41,252 bases of DNA from a virus: the IMG/VR virus record IMGVR_UViG_3300033148_002564, positions 1 to 41,252 of that record; one strand, 5' to 3'. Under the pieces are notes generated by a model that saw only the letters and a list, made by a program, of their open reading frames with translations, made no database searches and was not told the DNA's origin. The position numbers were made by a program, and so were the translations under genes. The first letter of the stretch is position 1, and every line of letters begins with the position of its first letter. Positions 13,151 to 41,252 of this stretch are shown one piece after another.

Positions 13151-13184
13151 TATATGTACTTCACTACCTTTGTACCCTCTATCG

Positions 13185-13258
13185 CTAGAGAGAACCGAAC
13201 ACACACTCATGACCCTTGTTGGTCACTTTGAAATACCGTGTTCTCTCTAGCTTTTTTT
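13185..13258 (+). terminator. Branched intrinsic terminator of the late operon
   Basis: CTAGAGAGAAC (13185-13195) pairs perfectly with GTTCTCTCTAG (13240-13250), followed by a run of seven T. Inside is a second small stem, TGACC with GGTCA. It ends the + transcript that includes the virion genes. Confidence 0.85.
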
Positions 13259-13263
13259 ATCTA

Positions 13264-13309
13264 CAAAAAAAACATCACTCAAGGGCAAGTGTTGCCTCAA
13301 GTGATGTTT
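13264..13309 (-). terminator. Intrinsic terminator of the minus-strand mini-gene
   Basis: Reading on minus, AAACATCACT (complement of 13300-13309) pairs with AGTGATGTTT (13270-13279), with an inner TTGCC/GGCAA pairing, followed by an unbroken T-run (A-run 13265-13272 on +). It is back-to-back with the + terminator just upstream. Confidence 0.85.
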
Positions 13310-13318
13310 CTACACTTG

Positions 13319-13438
13319 CTATTCTTCTTCTACTTCTCCGACTGCTTCTTCTAGTGGGCCATCCAATACTACGTCTAGCCCTTCCTCACCGTCAACCTTC
13401 TTTGCGGTCTCCTGCAAGGCTTTTTCTAGTGCGTTCAT
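13319..13438 (-). CDS. Very acidic 39-residue protein in its own transcription unit
   Basis: The reverse strand encodes 39 residues opening MNALEKALQETAKKVDGE and ending EEAVGEVEEE, about a third of them Asp or Glu. It has a strong Shine-Dalgarno (GAGAGGAGGCG), a near-consensus sigma70 promoter about 65-90 bases upstream and an intrinsic terminator directly downstream, the best expression signals in the window. No family is recognised. Its size and charge are compatible with a host-takeover or DNA-mimic protein, but that is only speculation. Confidence 0.75.
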   Translation of the reverse strand: MNALEKALQETAKKVDGEEGLDVVLDGPLEEAVGEVEEE

Positions 13439-15975: not shown

Positions 15976-17160
15976 TTAGCCTTTAATAACCGCCAGTGGT
16001 TTTAATTTTGTTATGACTTTCACTAAATCTGTTTGGTTAGCCATTACTGTATCAATATTCTTATATGCACCTGGGGCTTCGTCTAAGTCATTTTGACCTC
16101 TTGGTTTCCCTATGGTATCTCCCATCTTAGCTTGTTCGTCTTCAAGATTTAATTCCCTTATAGCTTGTTTGCGTCCCATCTTACGACCTGCCCCATGAGA
16201 ACAAGACTTGAAGCTCTCCCTATTACCTAGTCCTTCTACGATATAGCTTGCTGCCCCCATTGAGCCTGGAATGATACCGATCTCTCCATCTTTTGCCGAT
16301 GTCGCTCCTTTACGATGTATGAATACATTTCTACCAAAATGATTTTCCAGTGAAGCGTAATTGTGAGCGATATTTAACATGTCATCAAATCTACAATCAG
16401 TGTGATGTGCGAATAATTGTTTAATCCTATCCATCATTAACTTACGATTAGCCAACGCAAAATCAACACAATAATTCATTTCGTTCATATATGCTTGCCC
16501 CTCCTCTGTATCTACTCGCAAAAATGCCAACTCCCATTCCTTAGGTACTTGTGAATAATATCTTTCGTTCATTTCAATAGCTAATTTATTGTAATGATTG
16601 GCTACCTGTAATCCGATATTACGGCTTCCGCTATGTATCATTATCCAAATATATCCATCATCACCTTTCTGTATTTCAATGAAGTGATTACCACCACCGA
16701 GTGTGCCGAGAGATTTTAGAGCATTTTCAAATTCTTGTGCTACTATTGGATATTTTTTACTATTTATCCAAGGCTCTTCTTCTGGGCAATCTTTTTCTCT
16801 TTCTGGCAACAAAAAACAATCTTGATTATCTCTATGTTTACTAAATCCAACTGGCACTACTTTTCTAATCTCTCCCATTATCTTTTTAAGAGTATCAGTA
16901 TCTATTTCAGTTAAAGAAGTCCTTATGGCACACATACCACATCCAATATCAACCCCAACAGCATTTGGTACTATTATATCCCTCGTAGCCAACACTCCAC
17001 CAATGGGCATACCATAACCCATGTGACTATCAGGCATTATTGCTATGTGCCTAAAGACAAAGGGAAGGTTAGCAAGGTTTTTAGCTTGGTCTAATGCATT
17101 TTCATCTATGTCATCTAACCACATTTTAATCGGCTTTTTTTCTGTTAAGATTATGTTCAT
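15976..17160 (-). CDS. rtcB: RNA-splicing ligase RtcB
   Basis: A 394-residue RtcB, which joins RNA 2',3'-cyclic-phosphate or 3'-phosphate ends to 5'-OH ends using GTP and Mn2+. Key elements are visible: DIGCGM with metal-binding Cys74, GGGNHFIEI (His159), HSGSR (His176), the IHRKGATSA segment and SHGAGR with the guanylylated His322. The length fits the compact family branch. In a phage it most likely repairs tRNA or other RNA cut by host defence nucleases. TATAAT ends 6 bases before the ATG, suggesting its own leaderless promoter. Confidence 0.95.
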   Translation of the reverse strand: MNIILTEKKPIKMWLDDIDENALDQAKNLANLPFVFRHIAIMPDSHMGYGMPIGGVLATRDIIVPNAVGVDIGCGMCAIRTSLTEIDTDTLKKIMGEIRKVVPVGFSKHRDNQDCFLLPEREKDCPEEEPWINSKKYPIVAQEFENALKSLGTLGGGNHFIEIQKGDDGYIWIMIHSGSRNIGLQVANHYNKLAIEMNERYYSQVPKEWELAFLRVDTEEGQAYMNEMNYCVDFALANRKLMMDRIKQLFAHHTDCRFDDMLNIAHNYASLENHFGRNVFIHRKGATSAKDGEIGIIPGSMGAASYIVEGLGNRESFKSCSHGAGRKMGRKQAIRELNLEDEQAKMGDTIGKPRGQNDLDEAPGAYKNIDTVMANQTDLVKVITKLKPLAVIKG

Positions 17161-17172: not shown

Positions 17173-17202
17173 TCTCGATTAGTAAGTTTAGTTATGCACA
17201 GA

Positions 17203-17616
17203 TTATAATCCTTGTTTGTCTTCAATATAATGTCCTGCAAGATTAGTTTCTCTCGGCCCCCAAATCAAAGACATGTTAATCTCTTCTAAGAATTCATTAA
17301 TTTCTTCTTTTAATCGTAATACCCACCCTCTATCATTTATTTTTTTACCAACCTTTTTACCATATACCCACGCTATATTATTTTTACTATCAGTTCTTAT
17401 TTCTACTTCTTTTATACCCTTCCAAGCACACCAACGCAGTGCTTCTTTTACCGCGATTAGTTCAGCGATATTATTAGAACCGCCAAAATTTTCTTCTTCT
17501 ATTATCACTTTGCCGTTTTTTCTAGTAACGACTGATACCATTCTACGTTTTGAAATGTCACGTTGAGAATTGCCAGAGCAACCTCCGTCTACATACAAAA
17601 CAATTTTTTCATTCAT
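17203..17616 (-). CDS. Ribonuclease HI
   Basis: A 137-residue RNase H, which removes RNA from RNA-DNA hybrids. Asp10 (LYVDGGCSGN), Glu52 (NNIAELIAVKEAL) and Asp76 (RTDSKNN) are the catalytic carboxylates. The last acidic position is expected near RETNLAGHYIED, where NLAG replaces the more usual N.AD. The ATG at 17616 was chosen because the domain starts there and GAAGAG lies upstream. An open frame extends to 17745 but its residues look non-coding. It may remove primers or R-loops during replication. Confidence 0.85.
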   Translation of the reverse strand: MNEKIVLYVDGGCSGNSQRDISKRRMVSVVTRKNGKVIIEEENFGGSNNIAELIAVKEALRWCAWKGIKEVEIRTDSKNNIAWVYGKKVGKKINDRGWVLRLKEEINEFLEEINMSLIWGPRETNLAGHYIEDKQGL

Positions 17617-17647
17617 AACTCTTCTACTAGTTAAGTTAGCTAATACT

Positions 17648-17701
17648 CTGGGCAATAGCCATATCTGGGCAATAGCCATAGGGGGATTACTTGTCCTATG
17701 G
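17648..17701. repeat. 17-base direct repeat and overlapping hairpin
   Basis: CTGGGCAATAGCCATA occurs at 17648-17663 and again at 17665-17680. CCATAGG (17676-17682) then pairs with CCTATGG (17695-17701). The element lies just upstream of the RNase HI start on minus, at one edge of the structured gap. Confidence 0.7.
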
Positions 17702-17727
17702 GTAAGGGCTATGTCTGATAAGTAATA

Positions 17728-18059
17728 GTTGTTGTATCTCAACATCTTATTGTAACTCTACGACCTCCTCTTGTTATCGAGTTGCTTGCCTAAGGATTTT
17801 ACGTGCCGAGTTACTTTACAGCGAAGGCACGACGGACTGTTTACCGTAGGCATCCTTTGGTATAAAAGCCTCCCGTCTAATCCGTACGGGAACGACGTCA
17901 GGATGTCTCTCTAGCGTAAGCGAGTTATCTGTTTAGTTAAATAATAGATAACAGGGCTAAATTTAACGTCGAGCCTAGAGCCTGAACAGGTTTGTCCCCC
18001 GACGTAAGATTTCTCTTATATAACGAAAAACTCACGCCCACTAGATACGTGGATGTGAG
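17728..18059. ncRNA. Candidate large structured RNA
   Basis: This gap has no credible gene but a chain of stems: TGTTG 17730/17740; GTAACTC 17752/GAGTTGC 17779; a 10-position stem 17788-17797/17852-17861 enclosing CGTGCC 17802/17826 and ACGG 17832/17844; TCCCGT 17871/ACGGGA 17886; GACGT 17894/17903; a GC-GTAA-GC tetraloop hairpin 17909-17924; GTTATCT 17924/AGATAAC 17946; ACGTCG 17966/CGACGT 18000; and a hairpin at 18031-18059. Several stems contain G-U pairs only on +, which favours + transcription. However, the best promoter reads minus, so the strand is left open. The region looks richer in GC than the flanks. Confidence 0.55.
18026..18059 (-). terminator. Intrinsic terminator on minus inside the structured gap
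   Basis: On minus, CTCACATCCAC pairs with GTGGGCGTGAG (a 2x2 internal loop), followed by five T (A-run 18026-18030 on +). With the minus promoter at 18224-18252 it would bound an RNA of about 190 bases. Confidence 0.6.
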
Positions 18060-18161
18060 CATGAGTTTCCCGAAACGATATATTGTAAATTTCACGTATC
18101 ATAACTATATGATACTTATGAATAAAATAAATGCAAGAGTATTTTTCTTCTGCCAGTCTTC

Positions 18162-18210
18162 TACCAGTAATTATCAATGACAGGTTCCGCCACATTGATA
18201 ATTATTGGTA
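18162..18210. repeat. 18-bp inverted repeat (hairpin)
   Basis: TACCAGTAATTATCAATG (18162-18179) pairs with CATTGATAATTATTGGTA (18193-18210) over all 18 positions, with one G-U on +, around a 13-base loop. It sits just downstream of the minus promoter. It could be an RNA stem or a protein-binding or replication element. Confidence 0.8.
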
Positions 18211-18223
18211 AAAGAATATTTAC

Positions 18224-18252
18224 ATTATACATTGTGGATAAGTCGAGTGCAA
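18224..18252 (-). promoter_or_regulatory. Sigma70 promoter into the structured gap
   Basis: On minus: TTGCAC (18247-18252), 17-base spacer, TATAAT (18224-18229). A perfect DnaA-box 9-mer (TGTGGATAA, 18233-18241 on +) lies in the spacer. The predicted start is near 18217, reading through the 18-bp hairpin toward RNase HI. Confidence 0.7.
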
Positions 18253-18264
18253 AATAATAATAGT

Positions 18265-18284
18265 TGGTATACATTGATTGTATG
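18265..18284 (+). promoter_or_regulatory. Early promoter with operator-like sequence over the start codon
   Basis: TTGGTATACA is an extended -10 (TATACA 18268-18273), 8 bases before the ATG at 18282. The stretch TATACATTGATTGTATG (18268-18284) differs at two positions from the perfect palindrome at 24971-24987, suggesting one regulator for both promoters. Confidence 0.6.
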
Positions 18285-18491
18285 AGTTACGAAGACCCGA
18301 ATGAATGGGACGAAAACAGAGAAGAAGAGGAGTGGACTAAGTATTGTCACTCTTGTAAACAAGAAAAGAGATTAGACCAATTTTACAAATGCACAAGTAG
18401 GAGATTTGGTAGACAAACACAATGTAAAGAATGTCAGTATAACAACAATCAACATTGGTATAATAAGAATAAAATACACAAAGTTAATTAA
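18282..18491 (+). CDS. Small zinc-ribbon protein, first early gene
   Basis: A 69-residue protein with CHSCKQEKRLDQFYKC and then QCKEC, a treble-clef-like zinc site often seen as the N-terminal half of phage HNH proteins; the HNH part is absent. The ATG at 18282 was chosen over an in-frame TTG at 18264 because the -10 box lies between them. Function unknown. Confidence 0.7.
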   Translation: MSYEDPNEWDENREEEEWTKYCHSCKQEKRLDQFYKCTSRRFGRQTQCKECQYNNNQHWYNKNKIHKVN

Positions 18492-18512
18492 TAATTAATT
18501 TAACAATAAATC

Positions 18513-19316
18513 ATGAACAAACCAATTAAAGCAAAAGGGAAAATAATAAAACACGAAAAAAACGAAGTAGACACCTTACTTACCTTAGCAATAGTAGAAA
18601 AGGTGCCAGTTGAGACACTTGAAAAACTAATCGCTTTACAAAAAGATGTTAAAGCCGAACTCGCAAGAGACGAGTTTAATAAGGCAATGTCGAAATTTCA
18701 GGGTGAGTGTCCAGTAATAGAAAAAGCTAAACAAGCTATGGACGGCTCAAAACTCCTATATAAATATGCAGGACTCGATACTATCGTTGGTCAGGTTAGA
18801 AAATATCTAACCAATAACGGCTTGAGCTACACAATGGACGTTAAGGCTAAAAAGGAAAGTGTCAAAGTTACTTGTACCGCAAAGCATGTAGCAGGGCATA
18901 CAGAGCAATCTTCTTTTGAAATACCGCTTGCTAATAAGACAGGTATTATGTCGGCACCTCAACAGGTAGCAGCAACCGCAACATTCGCCAAGCGTTATGC
19001 CTTTTGTGATGTATTCGGGATTATGACAGGTAGTGAGGATAAAGAGGAAATGCTACAAGACCCTAAAAGCTTCCAAAAAGATACTATTAAGGAGGCAAAA
19101 GCTAGATTAAAGAGAACCAAAAATATCAAAGAGTTATTGTCGGCTTGGTCAGATTTGCCAGCATCGGCAAAGAAGGAACCTAAAATCGTTGAATTTAAGG
19201 ACGAAATAAAAGATGGCTTTGATAATCAGAACGCTAAAAATGAAGAAGTTGAAGGGCGGCGATTAACCGAGGCAGAAAAGAAAGAGATTATTAAAAAGGA
19301 AATGGAGGACAAATAA
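18513..19316 (+). CDS. Erf-family single-strand annealing protein
   Basis: A 267-residue recombinase of the ERF superfamily, which anneals complementary single strands during phage recombination. Diagnostic parts are the helical lead with FNKAMSKFQGECPVIEK, YKYAGLDTIVGQVRKYLTNNGLSYTMD, and the GIMSAPQQVAATATFAKRYAFCDVFGI segment followed by an acidic DKEE. The acidic Glu/Lys C-terminus is usual for partner binding. It acts with the YqaJ exonuclease two genes downstream. Confidence 0.92.
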   Translation: MNKPIKAKGKIIKHEKNEVDTLLTLAIVEKVPVETLEKLIALQKDVKAELARDEFNKAMSKFQGECPVIEKAKQAMDGSKLLYKYAGLDTIVGQVRKYLTNNGLSYTMDVKAKKESVKVTCTAKHVAGHTEQSSFEIPLANKTGIMSAPQQVAATATFAKRYAFCDVFGIMTGSEDKEEMLQDPKSFQKDTIKEAKARLKRTKNIKELLSAWSDLPASAKKEPKIVEFKDEIKDGFDNQNAKNEEVEGRRLTEAEKKEIIKKEMEDK

Positions 19317-19317
19317 T

Positions 19318-19536
19318 ATGACAAAAATTAAGGTAGGAAAAAAATATACATATAAGTTAGGTGACGATAGTCCAGTAAAAGTAAAAGTTCTTGATATTAC
19401 AGAAACGAGTGATGGCAAAATAAGTATAAAATATAGGTATGGATTTCTTGGGCCAGTATTTACTGATAGTGTTAAACAATTTGAATATTTTATTAATCCA
19501 CAAAGAATTATCATTAAACATCACAAAGAGATATGA
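19318..19536 (+). CDS. Unknown 72-residue beta-rich protein
   Basis: A small basic protein between erf and the exonuclease, with alternating strands (KKYTYKLGDDSPVKVKVLDI). No family is recognised. Its ATG follows the erf stop almost immediately and its stop overlaps the exonuclease ATG (ATGA), so it belongs to the recombination operon. Confidence 0.65.
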   Translation: MTKIKVGKKYTYKLGDDSPVKVKVLDITETSDGKISIKYRYGFLGPVFTDSVKQFEYFINPQRIIIKHHKEI

Positions 19537-20264
19537 ACACACAAATTTTTGAAGATGAACGTGAATGGCAAAATGCTCGTATCGGTAAAATTACTGGTAC
19601 TAAAGTAAAGGGGCTACTTAGTAAATCGGCAATAACTAAGGATAAAATAATTACAGAGCTTAACGCATTAAAGCTTCCATATAAGAAAAGCGCATCAAAA
19701 GGATTACTGGAAGCTATGCTACCAGAAGAATCTTTAATGAGGATAAAAATGCAAGCTCCTAAAAAGATGGGCTATTATGACTTAATAGCAGAAAAACTAA
19801 TCGAAGATGATGGTATTGATTTAGGACCGATGGACAGAGGTACATATCTTGAAACCGATGCATTAGAATTGTTTAGGAAGGAAACGGGTAAAAATGTAGA
19901 CGATAGAAAAATATTATGGAGTCGGGAAGATGACCCAAATATTGCCTGTTCACCTGACGGGGTAATAGGAAAAACCGAAGCAGTTGAAGTAAAATGTTTG
20001 TCGGCTGGTAGGCATGTTGAGGCTATGCTTACAGGTAAAATCCCAAGTGAATATATGGAGCAAGCAATACAATATTTTGTTGTTAACGACAAATTAAAGA
20101 AATTATATTTTGTATTTTTTGACCCACGTTTAATAGTAAAACAATTTTTCTTTCATATTATTGAAAGAGCGTATGTACAAAAAGAAGTAATTGAATACTT
20201 AGAGATACAGAAAGAGGTTTTGAAGGAAATTGATTTAGTTGTAGCCGAGCTAACTGATTTCTAG
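19533..20264 (+). CDS. YqaJ-type (lambda Exo-like) recombination exonuclease
   Basis: A 243-residue PD-(D/E)XK nuclease. It resects double-strand ends to give the single strands used by Erf. The active-site pieces are Glu107 (GTYLETDA), Asp142 (CSPDGVIG) and Glu152-x-Lys154 (AVEVKC), with a downstream QAIQYF helix as in YqaJ proteins. The N-terminal REWQNARIGKITGT is also characteristic. It overlaps the preceding gene as ATGA. Confidence 0.9.
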   Translation: MNTQIFEDEREWQNARIGKITGTKVKGLLSKSAITKDKIITELNALKLPYKKSASKGLLEAMLPEESLMRIKMQAPKKMGYYDLIAEKLIEDDGIDLGPMDRGTYLETDALELFRKETGKNVDDRKILWSREDDPNIACSPDGVIGKTEAVEVKCLSAGRHVEAMLTGKIPSEYMEQAIQYFVVNDKLKKLYFVFFDPRLIVKQFFFHIIERAYVQKEVIEYLEIQKEVLKEIDLVVAELTDF

Positions 20265-20281
20265 TATGAACAAAACGTATC

Positions 20282-20404
20282 ATGCAATTATCCTTTTATG
20301 CCACCATGCTGCGGAATCATGGGCATAAGGTCGATAAGGTAATTGTGTGGAATTACACGGATAAGTGGACTAAACATAAAAGTAAAGTATTAAATCTTAA
20401 ATAA
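20282..20404 (+). pseudogene. Short ORF resembling the end of a RecB/Cas4-like nuclease
   Basis: Forty codons starting MQLSFYATMLRNHGHKVDKV and continuing VIVWNYTDKWTKHKS. The QLSFYA helix followed by G-KVDK-VW-Y is the pattern that follows the active site in PD-(D/E)XK nucleases of the RecB/Cas4 type. The active-site part is missing, so this looks like a remnant of a second nuclease, or it may be a small protein in its own right. No Shine-Dalgarno is evident. Confidence 0.4.
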
Positions 20405-20413
20405 AATATTATG
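20391..20413 (+). repeat. Duplicated leader upstream of two genes, copy 1
   Basis: TAAATCTTAAATAAAATATT directly precedes the ATG at 20411 and recurs at 20896-20915 before the ATG at 20916; both genes begin ATGGAC. The leader is AT-rich and has no Shine-Dalgarno. Confidence 0.75.
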
Positions 20414-20872: not shown

Positions 20873-20895
20873 GTATCAGAGTATTAAATCTTAAC

Positions 20896-20918
20896 TAAAT
20901 CTTAAATAAAATATTATG
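20896..20918 (+). repeat. Duplicated leader, copy 2
   Basis: Same TAAATCTTAAATAAAATATT-ATGGAC sequence as at 20391-20416, before the next gene. A partial third relative precedes the ATG at 23326 (ATCTTAAATAATAAAATA). Confidence 0.75.
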
Positions 20919-24960: not shown

Positions 24961-24991
24961 AGTTGACGTGTATACAATGATTGTATAGTAT
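24948..24991 (+). promoter_or_regulatory. Promoter with 17-bp palindromic operator
   Basis: TTGACG (24963-24968) and TAGTAT (24986-24991) are 17 bases apart. The spacer holds the perfect palindrome TATACAATGATTGTATA (24971-24987). A perfect DnaA-box 9-mer (TGTGGATAA, 24948-24956) lies just upstream. It probably drives the genes at 25166 and 25383. Confidence 0.7.
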
Positions 24992-30733: not shown

Positions 30734-31836
30734 GTAAAGAAATGTGGAAACCATTAAGAATATGGAATTATCCATGGCATACTTCACATCAATTTTCGTT
30801 AATGTCAAGTATACCATATAGTGAATGGTATCTGTATGAACCACCATATAGACGATGGGGATATGAAGCCAGACCATTACCGGCCAATGCAAGATTTGTA
30901 GGTTTTTATGATAAAGGTAAATACGATTTAGCCATACTTCATGTAGACGGAGAGTGTGCAGACCCAGAAAATCGCAAGGGAGACATGTACCGTAAAGCTA
31001 ACAAGCTGATACAAGACATACCAAAAATAGTAATCAATCACGGAACGCCTTATTTGCCGGAGGTATTTGGCAAATACTTTAAGCACTTGCAGGACGAAAA
31101 AACAGTGTTCAATGAGAGTGTACGAATGTGTAAAAATAAAATGAAGGTGTTAATAGGCGATAATCCAATGGTGGTTAATTCGAAGAAGGCAGCGAAGGAT
31201 TGGGGATTTGGTACACCTATAATCCATGGCATGTATGGAAACCCTGAGGAGGAGTATTGGGACTTGAAAAAAGAAAATAATGTGGTGTTTATAGTGTCAG
31301 TATCAGGTTGGCCATATTACTACAACAGGCGAGTAATGGAAGATATACGAACACGATTACACGATAGTGGTATAAAAATAAGACAGATGCGAGTAGATAT
31401 AACACCGAGAAGCTTTGACGAGTACAGAACAGAGCTTGGTAAAACTTTAATTGGTGTATTCCCGTTCAGAGAAAGCCCTATGCCACGTTCACGAACAGAG
31501 TTAATGTTATCCGGTGGGTGCGTTGTTACAACAAAAACGCATGATATAGGAGATATGTTTAATGGACTAGAGTTTAAAAAGACACATGACGGTAAGTTTA
31601 TAAAAGACGAAACTGGGCAGATTATACCAAATACCAAGCCTGATGAGGCAGAGGTGGTATGGTGTGATTTGGATAACGCTATAGACGGGGCAGTAAAAGT
31701 ACAATGGCTATATGCAAACCCTGACATAGCTATGAAAATCGGGCAGAATGGTAAAAAGAAAGCACAAGAATTATTTAGCTATGAGAGGTATAGGAATGAT
31801 TGGTATAATTTACTAAAGAAGGAGAATGTTTTATGA
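30730..31836 (+). CDS. GT4-like glycosyltransferase
   Basis: A 368-residue glycosyltransferase of the GT-B fold. Visible parts include KIVINHGTPYLPEVFG, NNVVFIVSVSGWPYYYNRRV (start of the donor domain), IGVFPFRESPMPRSRTELML then SGGCVVTTKTHDIGD. The PRSRTEL segment takes the place of the usual E-x7-E donor site. ATGA junctions at both ends show tight coupling. Confidence 0.8.
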   Translation: MSKEMWKPLRIWNYPWHTSHQFSLMSSIPYSEWYLYEPPYRRWGYEARPLPANARFVGFYDKGKYDLAILHVDGECADPENRKGDMYRKANKLIQDIPKIVINHGTPYLPEVFGKYFKHLQDEKTVFNESVRMCKNKMKVLIGDNPMVVNSKKAAKDWGFGTPIIHGMYGNPEEEYWDLKKENNVVFIVSVSGWPYYYNRRVMEDIRTRLHDSGIKIRQMRVDITPRSFDEYRTELGKTLIGVFPFRESPMPRSRTELMLSGGCVVTTKTHDIGDMFNGLEFKKTHDGKFIKDETGQIIPNTKPDEAEVVWCDLDNAIDGAVKVQWLYANPDIAMKIGQNGKKKAQELFSYERYRNDWYNLLKKENVL

Positions 31837-31940
31837 ACGAATGGCAGAAAAAGATAATGGAATATAAAATTCCTCTATGGTGGGTGCTGGGGGTAGTAAT
31901 ATTATACTTTGCTTTTAAGGGGTTTATTGTGTCGATATGA
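31833..31940 (+). CDS. 35-residue membrane peptide
   Basis: MNEWQKKIMEYKIPLWWVLG is followed by a hydrophobic helix (VVILYFAFKGFIVSI). It overlaps the genes on both sides as ATGA and has a good Shine-Dalgarno (AAGGAG), so it is very probably translated. It may anchor the sugar enzymes at the membrane. Confidence 0.65.
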   Translation: MNEWQKKIMEYKIPLWWVLGVVILYFAFKGFIVSI

Positions 31941-33868
31941 AAACAGGATTTATTCTTTTTCGTGATTATCATAATAGGCAGCAGATTGGCTCATCTCGAA
32001 TACGAGGTGACTGGGTGTTGAAATACTGGAAAGATGCGGAGCTATACCGTGAGGGAGAACAATATGACATAGAAATCTACCAAAAAGTATATTGGAACGG
32101 ACACATGAAAGCATCGCCAGCTATTAAGATACTTGATATATGCGTAGCTAAAGATACTTTAATAATGACAAGTATTGGCTGGAAAAGGGCGGATGAAATA
32201 GAGCCAGGAATGGAAGTATTAACGCATAACAACCAATATAAGAACGTTAAGAAGGTGTATACGCGGATAGGAGAAACTAAAACGTATAGAGCCGCACGAA
32301 TGCCGTGGATTAGGGCAACGGATAATCATCCATTTTTAGCTGCGGTAGGTAGTTATGATGGATATGGAAAGAGAGAAATGTATGAGCCAACATGGATTGC
32401 TGCTGGGAAGTTGAGTAAATGGGTGCGTCATAAGGGGGGGAGTTTATTGGTCAGTATGCCCTCACCTAGCCAAAAGACCAATGATTATAGCGTAGATGGC
32501 GATACAGCATGGGCAATAGGGTATTACATGGCAGAGGGTACAGTGGGTCATCATCAAGTGAGCTTTGCGATGCATAGAAAAGAGTTAAAACAACGAGAGA
32601 GAATAAGTAGGTATATAAATAGTCTAGGTAATAAGGTGTGTGAAAGGGATACTGATGATAATGGACATAGCGTTTACTTTTCAAATAAAGAATGGTTGTT
32701 GTTGGCTAGAGATATTGGTGTGAGTTTAAACAAAACTTTGCCAGCATTTGTGTATCATTTGCCTATTAAAGATAAATTGCAGGTACTGGCCGGTTATGTT
32801 TCTGGCGATGGATATGCTGGTGATGGTGGTGTAGGTGTAGCGTCTATATCACAGAAACTAGCTTTTGGGATGTGGAAGCTGTTTAGAGATTGTGGTTACA
32901 CAGCGTCTATACACTACGCTAAAAGAGACGGATATAGCTGTCGCTTTATTCATAAAAACGGTAAAGAGTATATTGGTAATCCGCAGTGGAAAATACAACT
33001 TAATCCATCAGAGTCAAAGAGATTTTTGCAGGACGTAGAAGTTTATAAGGATTACGATTATCAAGAGCCAAAGAGTAAAAATCACGAAGTTATAGAAAAA
33101 GATGGTAAGTTGCTACATCCATTAAGAAGCGTAGAAGATTTTGGAGAGGAGTTAGTTTACAACTTTGAGGTAGAAGATGATAACAGCTACGTTGCTAATG
33201 GTTACATAGTGCACAATTGCGATCCTGATTGGACTGAAAACCCTACAGTCAATGAAACAGTAAAGTATGTGGACGCTATAACTTGCCCTACAGAGCCGTT
33301 TGTTAAGCATTTTTCTAAATATACGGATAAGCCCATAGTCGTAATTCCTGACAGATTGGATATGGAATACTACAAAAAGCAGAAAGAGCATAAAGGTGAT
33401 GCTAAAAAGGTTGTATGGTTCGGATACTCGCATAATTCAGGTGTGCTACAGCAAGCCATACCTACGTTAAGGGAGCTAAAAATGAAACTAACTGTAATTA
33501 GCGATGACTTTAAGATATTTATAGGCAGTAATGATGACAAAGATTTGTTCAATTTTATAAAATATGATGAAAAAACAGTTAATCGTGATATAATAAAGCA
33601 TGGGGATATAGCTTTATTGCCACCAGCTACGTTAGACGATAACGGAGAAGTACCGTATCGTAGCAGATTTAAAAGTAATAATAAGACTATTAATTCTTGG
33701 GGATTAGGTTTGCCGGTAGCAACTAACGCCGAGGAACTGGAGCATTTTATTCCGGCGGTAAACAGAATAAAGGAAGCTGACGAACGCTGGGAAGAAGTAA
33801 AAGCAAAGTACGATTCAAAATTAAGTGTTATACAATACCTGGATTTAATAAAACAAATATATGGATAA
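31937..33868 (+). CDS. Glycosyltransferase interrupted by an intein
   Basis: A 643-residue precursor: residues 1-68 (N-extein), 69-427 (intein), 428-643 (C-extein). The spliced protein would be 284 residues, a GT-B-like glycosyltransferase (KKVVWFGYSHNSGVLQQAIP, ISDDFKIF, LPPATLDD, RFKSNNKTINSWGLGLPV). The intein sits within ILDI/CDPDW, a conserved-looking turn between strands of the N-terminal domain, so the enzyme would be inactive until splicing. ATGA overlaps the gene before. Confidence 0.85.
   Translation: MKTGFILFRDYHNRQQIGSSRIRGDWVLKYWKDAELYREGEQYDIEIYQKVYWNGHMKASPAIKILDICVAKDTLIMTSIGWKRADEIEPGMEVLTHNNQYKNVKKVYTRIGETKTYRAARMPWIRATDNHPFLAAVGSYDGYGKREMYEPTWIAAGKLSKWVRHKGGSLLVSMPSPSQKTNDYSVDGDTAWAIGYYMAEGTVGHHQVSFAMHRKELKQRERISRYINSLGNKVCERDTDDNGHSVYFSNKEWLLLARDIGVSLNKTLPAFVYHLPIKDKLQVLAGYVSGDGYAGDGGVGVASISQKLAFGMWKLFRDCGYTASIHYAKRDGYSCRFIHKNGKEYIGNPQWKIQLNPSESKRFLQDVEVYKDYDYQEPKSKNHEVIEKDGKLLHPLRSVEDFGEELVYNFEVEDDNSYVANGYIVHNCDPDWTENPTVNETVKYVDAITCPTEPFVKHFSKYTDKPIVVIPDRLDMEYYKKQKEHKGDAKKVVWFGYSHNSGVLQQAIPTLRELKMKLTVISDDFKIFIGSNDDKDLFNFIKYDEKTVNRDIIKHGDIALLPPATLDDNGEVPYRSRFKSNNKTINSWGLGLPVATNAEELEHFIPAVNRIKEADERWEEVKAKYDSKLSVIQYLDLIKQIYG
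32141..33217 (+). other. Intein with LAGLIDADG homing endonuclease
   Basis: A 359-residue intein starting at Cys69 (CVAKDTLIMTSIGWKRADEI), with block B TDNHPFL (Thr128, His131) and ending in YNFEVEDDNSYVANGYIVHN (penultimate His, terminal Asn427), followed by Cys+1. All splicing residues are present. Two LAGLIDADG motifs lie inside: WAIGYYMAEGTV (Glu200) and LAGYVSGDG (Asp291), so the homing endonuclease looks intact. Confidence 0.93.
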
Positions 33869-40663: not shown

Positions 40664-41252
40664 AATTGGTAAGGAAATCTTTAACTCGTTTCAGGAAGCT
40701 CAAAAAGAAGCTTTGGAGAAAGAGACTAAAGAGAAAAAGGTTAAAAAAGCAAAAGCTGAAAAGCATGTGGTCAATATTCATCCCCTGAATAAAGAGTATG
40801 GTATTTCAACAAACGCTTTTGATAACATGGTCGGCAAAGACTTCTCACCGGAGAATGTCAAGCAGTATGTCGGCATATTAAAAGACGAGGAAGCCATAAA
40901 AGAAAAGAACGCTCTTTTCTTCCGTGCTTTAGTGGGTACAAAACTATATCCACAAGAACAATCTTTTGCCTACACCTTGAAGGCTCTGTCCGAAGGCACT
41001 GATGCAGATGGTGGTTACCTAGTAACCCCAGAGTACAGAACAAACGTACTGCGCCAGTTACACAACAACGGTATTATGCGACCGGAGGTCAATGTAATAC
41101 CTACAAATACAGACTCGGTATTGTTTAACTATGAGGATGGTCGACCATTGGTAAGTTGGGGCTCGGAGAATACAACTATCTCCACAACCACAGCCGGACT
41201 TGGTCAAAAGACTATCAGTGTTCATAGAATGAATAGCCGAATGTACTTGTCT
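40626..41252 (+). CDS. Major capsid protein, HK97 fold (N-terminal part)
   Basis: The first 209 residues of the capsid protein, cut by the window end; it continues in frame into 1-690. Residues 1-60 are a Lys/Glu-rich helix like the delta domain that acts as scaffold and is removed by the protease. The fold start is marked by LSEGTDADGGYLVTPEYRTN near residues 121-140, a strong HK97 capsid signature. The last 114 bases duplicate bases 1-114. Confidence 0.93.
   Translation, partial: MKKEKSLKDQASEIGKEIFNSFQEAQKEALEKETKEKKVKKAKAEKHVVNIHPLNKEYGISTNAFDNMVGKDFSPENVKQYVGILKDEEAIKEKNALFFRALVGTKLYPQEQSFAYTLKALSEGTDADGGYLVTPEYRTNVLRQLHNNGIMRPEVNVIPTNTDSVLFNYEDGRPLVSWGSENTTISTTTAGLGQKTISVHRMNSRMYLS
41139..41252 (+). 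repeat. 114-base terminal redundancy identical to bases 1-114
   Basis: The last 114 bases equal the first 114 without a mismatch, and the capsid frame is preserved across the joint. This is what an assembler leaves for a circular or circularly permuted molecule. Confidence 0.97.

Follow-up and report, generated by a model that had tools for sequence, protein, structure and literature searches.

A candidate minus-strand small regulatory RNA in the longest gene-free gap of a phage genome

Introduction

The ColE1 RNA I/RNA II system consists of a short RNA with three hairpins and an opposing structured RNA. Among the RNAs encoded by phages, GOLLD (RF02032) and ROOL (RF03087) are often found near tRNA islands, an association that is common, not absolute (PMC12286853). 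In phage lambda, the pO-oop-tO unit gives OOP RNA, a leftward RNA of 77 nt that has its own promoter and a hairpin terminator (PMC5869508, PMC12197685).

We have analysed a window of 41,252 nucleotides (the whole of IMG/VR record IMGVR_UViG_3300033148_002564) and in it the gap at positions 17617–18281. This gap resembles the GOLLD and ROOL loci in being a large gene-free phage stretch with many stems. It differs from them in having no match to either model, in the absence of tRNA genes (ARAGORN finds none in the genome) and in not favouring one strand throughout. Specifically, no Rfam model matched the window at the gathering score, and at E ≤ 10 the region 17200–18500 gave chance matches only, most of them between the inverted repeat and eukaryotic microRNA hairpins. 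The GOLLD model run alone at E ≤ 10 found no match; neither did the ROOL model run alone, and the same model matched no control genome either, so that this is a weak result alone. The first-pass annotation had pictured a single large ornate plus-strand RNA of the GOLLD or ROOL kind while seeing no clear match to either. The latter remark agrees with the Rfam results; the former is not supported, given the lack of an Rfam match, the lack of tRNA genes nearby and a flip in strand preference within the gap. On present evidence, an RNA from this gap would not be a member of GOLLD or ROOL.

The lay-out predicted here from sequence is similar to that of lambda OOP: a short leftward RNA with its own promoter upstream on the same strand (18253–18224) and an intrinsic hairpin terminator at its 3′ end (18072–18024), beside a rightward operon for DNA metabolism. 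The predicted phage RNA is about 195 nt long with three hairpins as compared to the 77 nt of OOP, and it overlaps no coding gene and therefore would have no cII-like antisense target, unlike OOP. The resemblance is one of lay-out and we do not claim a relation in sequence. With ColE1 the locus shares a predicted short RNA of three hairpins, an adjacent RNase H gene and, possibly, a structured RNA that opposes the short one, although the opposing RNA, its overlap and the priming of replication are hypothetical for the phage gap.

Results

The record consists of 41,138 bp and an exact 114-bp end repeat (positions 1–114 are the same as 41139–41252), and the junction between its start and end is spanned by one of two sister contigs. 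This arrangement suggests a complete phage genome that was assembled as a circle. Tail genes, an Erf annealase and a RecE-like exonuclease are encoded in it; of the scanned proteins, none was recognised as a replication initiator, helicase, primase or polymerase. The gap is indeed, as first noted, the longest gene-free stretch of the window. To its left on the minus strand lie RNase H (17203–17616), which borders the gap, and then RtcB (15976–17160). On the plus strand it is bordered by a small endonuclease-VII-like protein (18282–18491), followed by Erf (18513–19316) and the exonuclease (19533–20264). The gap is also the divergent promoter region of the RNase H–RtcB and Erf–exonuclease operons, and promoters for both must lie in it or close by. 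GC skew turns at the gap, and so does gene direction. A repeat search found two exact tandem copies of the 17-bp sequence TCTGGGCAATAGCCATA at 17647–17680 (strand not assigned). A protein-coding role was ruled out, as the open reading frames within the gap have no family matches and reach a hexamer score of −0.09 to −0.31 versus 0.56 ± 0.21 for the short genes of the genome.

Several other features of the genome were noted. An intein with a LAGLIDADG-like domain splits a glycosyltransferase-like gene (31937–33868, plus strand), and a very stable hairpin on the minus strand (30741–30790), inside the first part of a glycosyltransferase-like coding sequence, has the top rank among 49-nt windows of that strand. 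In the structured intergenic region 690–850, a 31-bp tandem repeat is accompanied by a long hairpin. Near-identical leaders, TAAATCTTAAATAAAATATT, stand at 20390–20410 and 20895–20915 (plus strand) before two early genes lacking a Shine-Dalgarno sequence. Strong hairpins with U-tracts face each other at 13151–13438, where a short minus-strand open reading frame (about 13320–13438) has a near-perfect Shine-Dalgarno sequence and the best promoter of the genome, TTGACT-17-TATACT.

Both strands of the gap fold better than all 20 dinucleotide shuffles: the plus strand at −192.5 kcal/mol (z −4.5) and the minus strand at −180 kcal/mol (z −5.1). Together with the non-coding character of the open reading frames this supports the initial reading of the gap as structured non-coding RNA. 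Excess structure was located by genome-wide scans corrected for composition by regression. In the 120-nt tiled scan, three of the four most structured windows of the genome fall within 18001–18240. The exceptional structure of the gap is therefore its right end, and it reads best on the minus strand. Strand preference is not uniform. From about 17600 to 18020 the plus strand folds better in nearly every 100-nt tile, whereas at 17981–18120 the minus strand folds better by about 3 s.d., because an 18-bp hairpin there has four G–U pairs that can form on the minus strand only. This flip near 18016–18024 argues against a single RNA across the gap; two units meeting there would explain it, and one RNA on one strand would not.

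Some details of the first-pass annotation have to be adjusted in the same way. G–U pairs confined to the plus strand are found in the left part, but in the hairpin at 18072–18024 they are confined to the minus strand. The gap is GC-richer than its surroundings only at about 17700–18000 (44%); overall it has 38.6% as compared to 37.5% in the genome. The GTAA tetraloop hairpin has a pair probability of about 0.5 and is therefore weak; when a larger span is folded, a longer stem takes its GTAAGC. The long inverted repeat is present, with 23-nt arms at 18157–18179 and 18193–18215 that are 91% complementary.

The best promoter-like site in the gap by weight matrix is TTTGCA-18-TATAAT on the minus strand (18253–18224), with 10 of 12 consensus bases and a predicted start at about 18217. 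It ranks 24th among 82,196 positions, its −35 box has just four of six consensus bases, and 23 positions of the genome score above it. Its spacer contains an exact TTATCCACA (18233–18241, minus strand), the DnaA-box consensus. There are three exact copies of TTATCCACA in the genome (13516, 18233 and 24948), each in or beside one of the top 25 promoters. Among the 2012 repeated 9-mers it is the only one with all copies at these promoters, and by our own arithmetic about 0.05 such words would be expected by chance. A DnaA-box regulon in this phage is possible, judging from the three boxes. A palindrome, ATACATTGATTGTAT (also written ATACAWTGATTGTAT), is present where the rightward operon starts (18269–18283, strand not assigned) and again at 24972–24986, and in both rightward promoter regions it sits downstream of a TGTGGATAA box. 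As the palindrome is common to both sites, the 18-kb and 25-kb rightward promoter regions carry the same two elements. The palindrome is possibly an operator, and the sharing of box and palindrome supports the presence of real, regulated promoters at the gap.

Downstream of this promoter three hairpins follow on the minus strand. The inverted repeat begins at 18215 and the predicted start is at about 18217; the first hairpin (18215–18157; pair probability 0.98–0.99 on the minus strand) would therefore stand at the extreme 5′ end of the transcript. The 120-nt window around it (18121–18240) ranks first in the genome on the plus strand and fourth on the minus strand, and the plus-strand fold of the hairpin itself is at least as good as the minus-strand one. 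The middle hairpin (18091–18122) has pair probabilities of 0.85–0.99. The third is the terminator candidate on the minus strand only (18072–18024), in which all 18 positions pair, four of them as G–U, before a short U-tract, TTTTTCGTT. It folds at −25.1 kcal/mol on the minus strand (z −7.1) as compared to −13.1 kcal/mol on the plus strand, and with its U-tract it is the third-best predicted terminator of the genome. On the minus strand it ranks third of 8218 windows, a rank that is flattered, as are those of the branched domain and of 17924–18016 given below, since the boundaries were taken from folds; the 120-nt tiled scan is free of this bias. The predicted RNA of about 195 nt (18217–18022) has a folding energy of −66.9 kcal/mol as a whole (z −6.2 relative to mononucleotide shuffles).

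Searches for relatives of the gap gave little. By blastn against phages and plasmids there were short chance matches only, and against 40 related viral records matches of chance length only; exact words of the gap had no match in viral contigs or matches without extended similarity. Pattern searches of viral contigs found no relative of Erf, RNase H or the exonuclease, and searches of genome contigs found none of Erf or TerL. RtcB has nine relatives (56–64% identity); in their surroundings, as far as these were fetched, neither the RNase H and Erf neighbours nor the gap is present. A TerL search gave the two sister contigs, which are nearly identical and do not reach the gap; the nearest TerL beyond them is about 53% identical. 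By these searches the phage appears to be effectively an orphan, and comparative evidence is thereby removed.

Discussion

We tentatively propose, at slightly less than even confidence, that the minus strand encodes a small regulatory RNA of about 195 nt in the right third of the gap, as a self-contained gene. Promoter, hairpins and terminator follow one another on a single strand in an order that would work, and the unit is placed immediately upstream of the divergent Erf–exonuclease operon. These elements are features of the sequence, from which we infer that the unit would be transcribed, what length its RNA would have, that DnaA might bind and that a target may exist. More specifically, host RNA polymerase would begin at the 18253–18224 promoter, which is probably controlled by a factor that binds TTATCCACA, host DnaA being the natural candidate. 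The hairpin transcribed first would seal the 5′ end of the RNA, and transcription would halt at the terminator hairpin, leaving a 3′ end near 18022. Most likely the product would be a free regulatory RNA, acting on a host target or as antisense to any plus-strand transcript that crosses the gap; among the phage start regions, no pairing with gene starts exceeded shuffles. The promoter of RNase H–RtcB would then lie closer to the start of that operon, for instance near 17801 or 17749 (both weak candidates). The small RNA model leaves the plus-strand preference of 17782–18016 unexplained.

The main rival is a role as DNA. The gap could be a replication origin or regulatory DNA, with the dyads, the 17-bp repeats and the DnaA box read by proteins and the RNA structure incidental. 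Whole-gap folding about equal on both strands would fit this, as would the tandem and inverted repeats together with the TTATCCACA box, the turn of GC skew, and the fact that replication proteins (initiator, helicase, primase, polymerase) went unrecognised among those scanned. However, no cluster of DnaA boxes was found in the gap, which has a single exact one, and the two other exact boxes lie in ordinary promoters. The skew turn coincides with the change of gene direction, and the minus-only G–U pairs of 18072–18024 point to RNA. We regard a DNA role as unlikely on balance.

Alternatively, in line with the long regulatory leader that the first-pass annotation allowed for, the minus-strand transcript could read through into the genes. 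It would then be a structured leader of the RNase H–RtcB operon, about 600 nt long, that terminates conditionally at 18024. The 18224 promoter is the strongest minus-strand promoter upstream of RNase H, a terminator candidate stands between it and the genes, and the promoters nearer RNase H are weak, none of them ranking above 98th. Against such a leader, the minus strand is unstructured downstream of 18016, and neither terminator arm has an upstream antiterminator partner (arm5 −8.1 and arm3 −10.4 kcal/mol, not above shuffles). The lack of an antiterminator speaks against classical attenuation. Since neither arm has an alternative partner upstream, the free small RNA is favoured over an attenuated leader, which is the less likely of the two; we consider the long leader doubtful, and less probable than the DNA element.

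There is a slim chance that a large plus-strand RNA is present, either of a new ornate class across the gap or a shorter one at 17640–18016. The block 17782–18016 folds better on the plus strand (rank 17 of 1638), and its difference between strands lies in the 0.1% tail of windows. Two adjoining hairpins at 17924–18016 favour the plus strand (z −4.6 as compared to −0.6 on the minus strand; rank 19 of 4106, with fold-derived boundaries). On the other hand, the branched domain (17782–17923; z −2.7 on plus, −0.8 on minus), noted in the first-pass annotation, turned out to be ordinary, ranking 63rd of 2734 same-size windows on the plus strand and 908th on the minus strand even with boundaries taken from its fold. 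A covariance model of this domain, which as a single-sequence model has limited reach, recovered only itself from 41 viral records and nothing from the 40 others. Moreover, no plus-strand promoter candidate to the left of the domain does better than rank 405 by weight matrix, and the absence of an Rfam match and the strand flip at 18016–18024 also count against one large plus-strand RNA. The block 17782–18016 is moderately beyond chance, without a clear plus-strand promoter. It may be a second RNA, tail-to-tail with the minus-strand small RNA.

The chance is equally slim that the gap is an ordinary divergent promoter region, made of terminator-like hairpins and spacer without a functional RNA. 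It is flanked by divergent operons, no homologue turned up in the searches, and the intergenic regions at about 721–840, 13171–13320 and 25041–25090 fold comparably well. This would not account for the z scores of the whole gap on both strands, for three of the top four 120-nt windows lying in 18001–18240, or for the working order of promoter, hairpins and terminator on one strand. It is highly improbable that two tail-to-tail RNAs (plus strand, about 17640–18016; minus strand, 18217–18022) and the adjacent RNase H make up a counter-transcript-controlled, RNase-H-processed system of RNA-primed replication in a phage that has no recognised initiator, helicase or polymerase.

Regarding the small RNA, the lesson of this locus is that folding of a single sequence can merge short units on opposite strands into one apparent ornate RNA. 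If it is transcribed, the right third of the gap would be a compact phage small RNA whose promoter carries a DnaA-box-like site common to two other transcription units of the phage. In that case, the RNA output of the phage could be tied to the replication initiator of its host.
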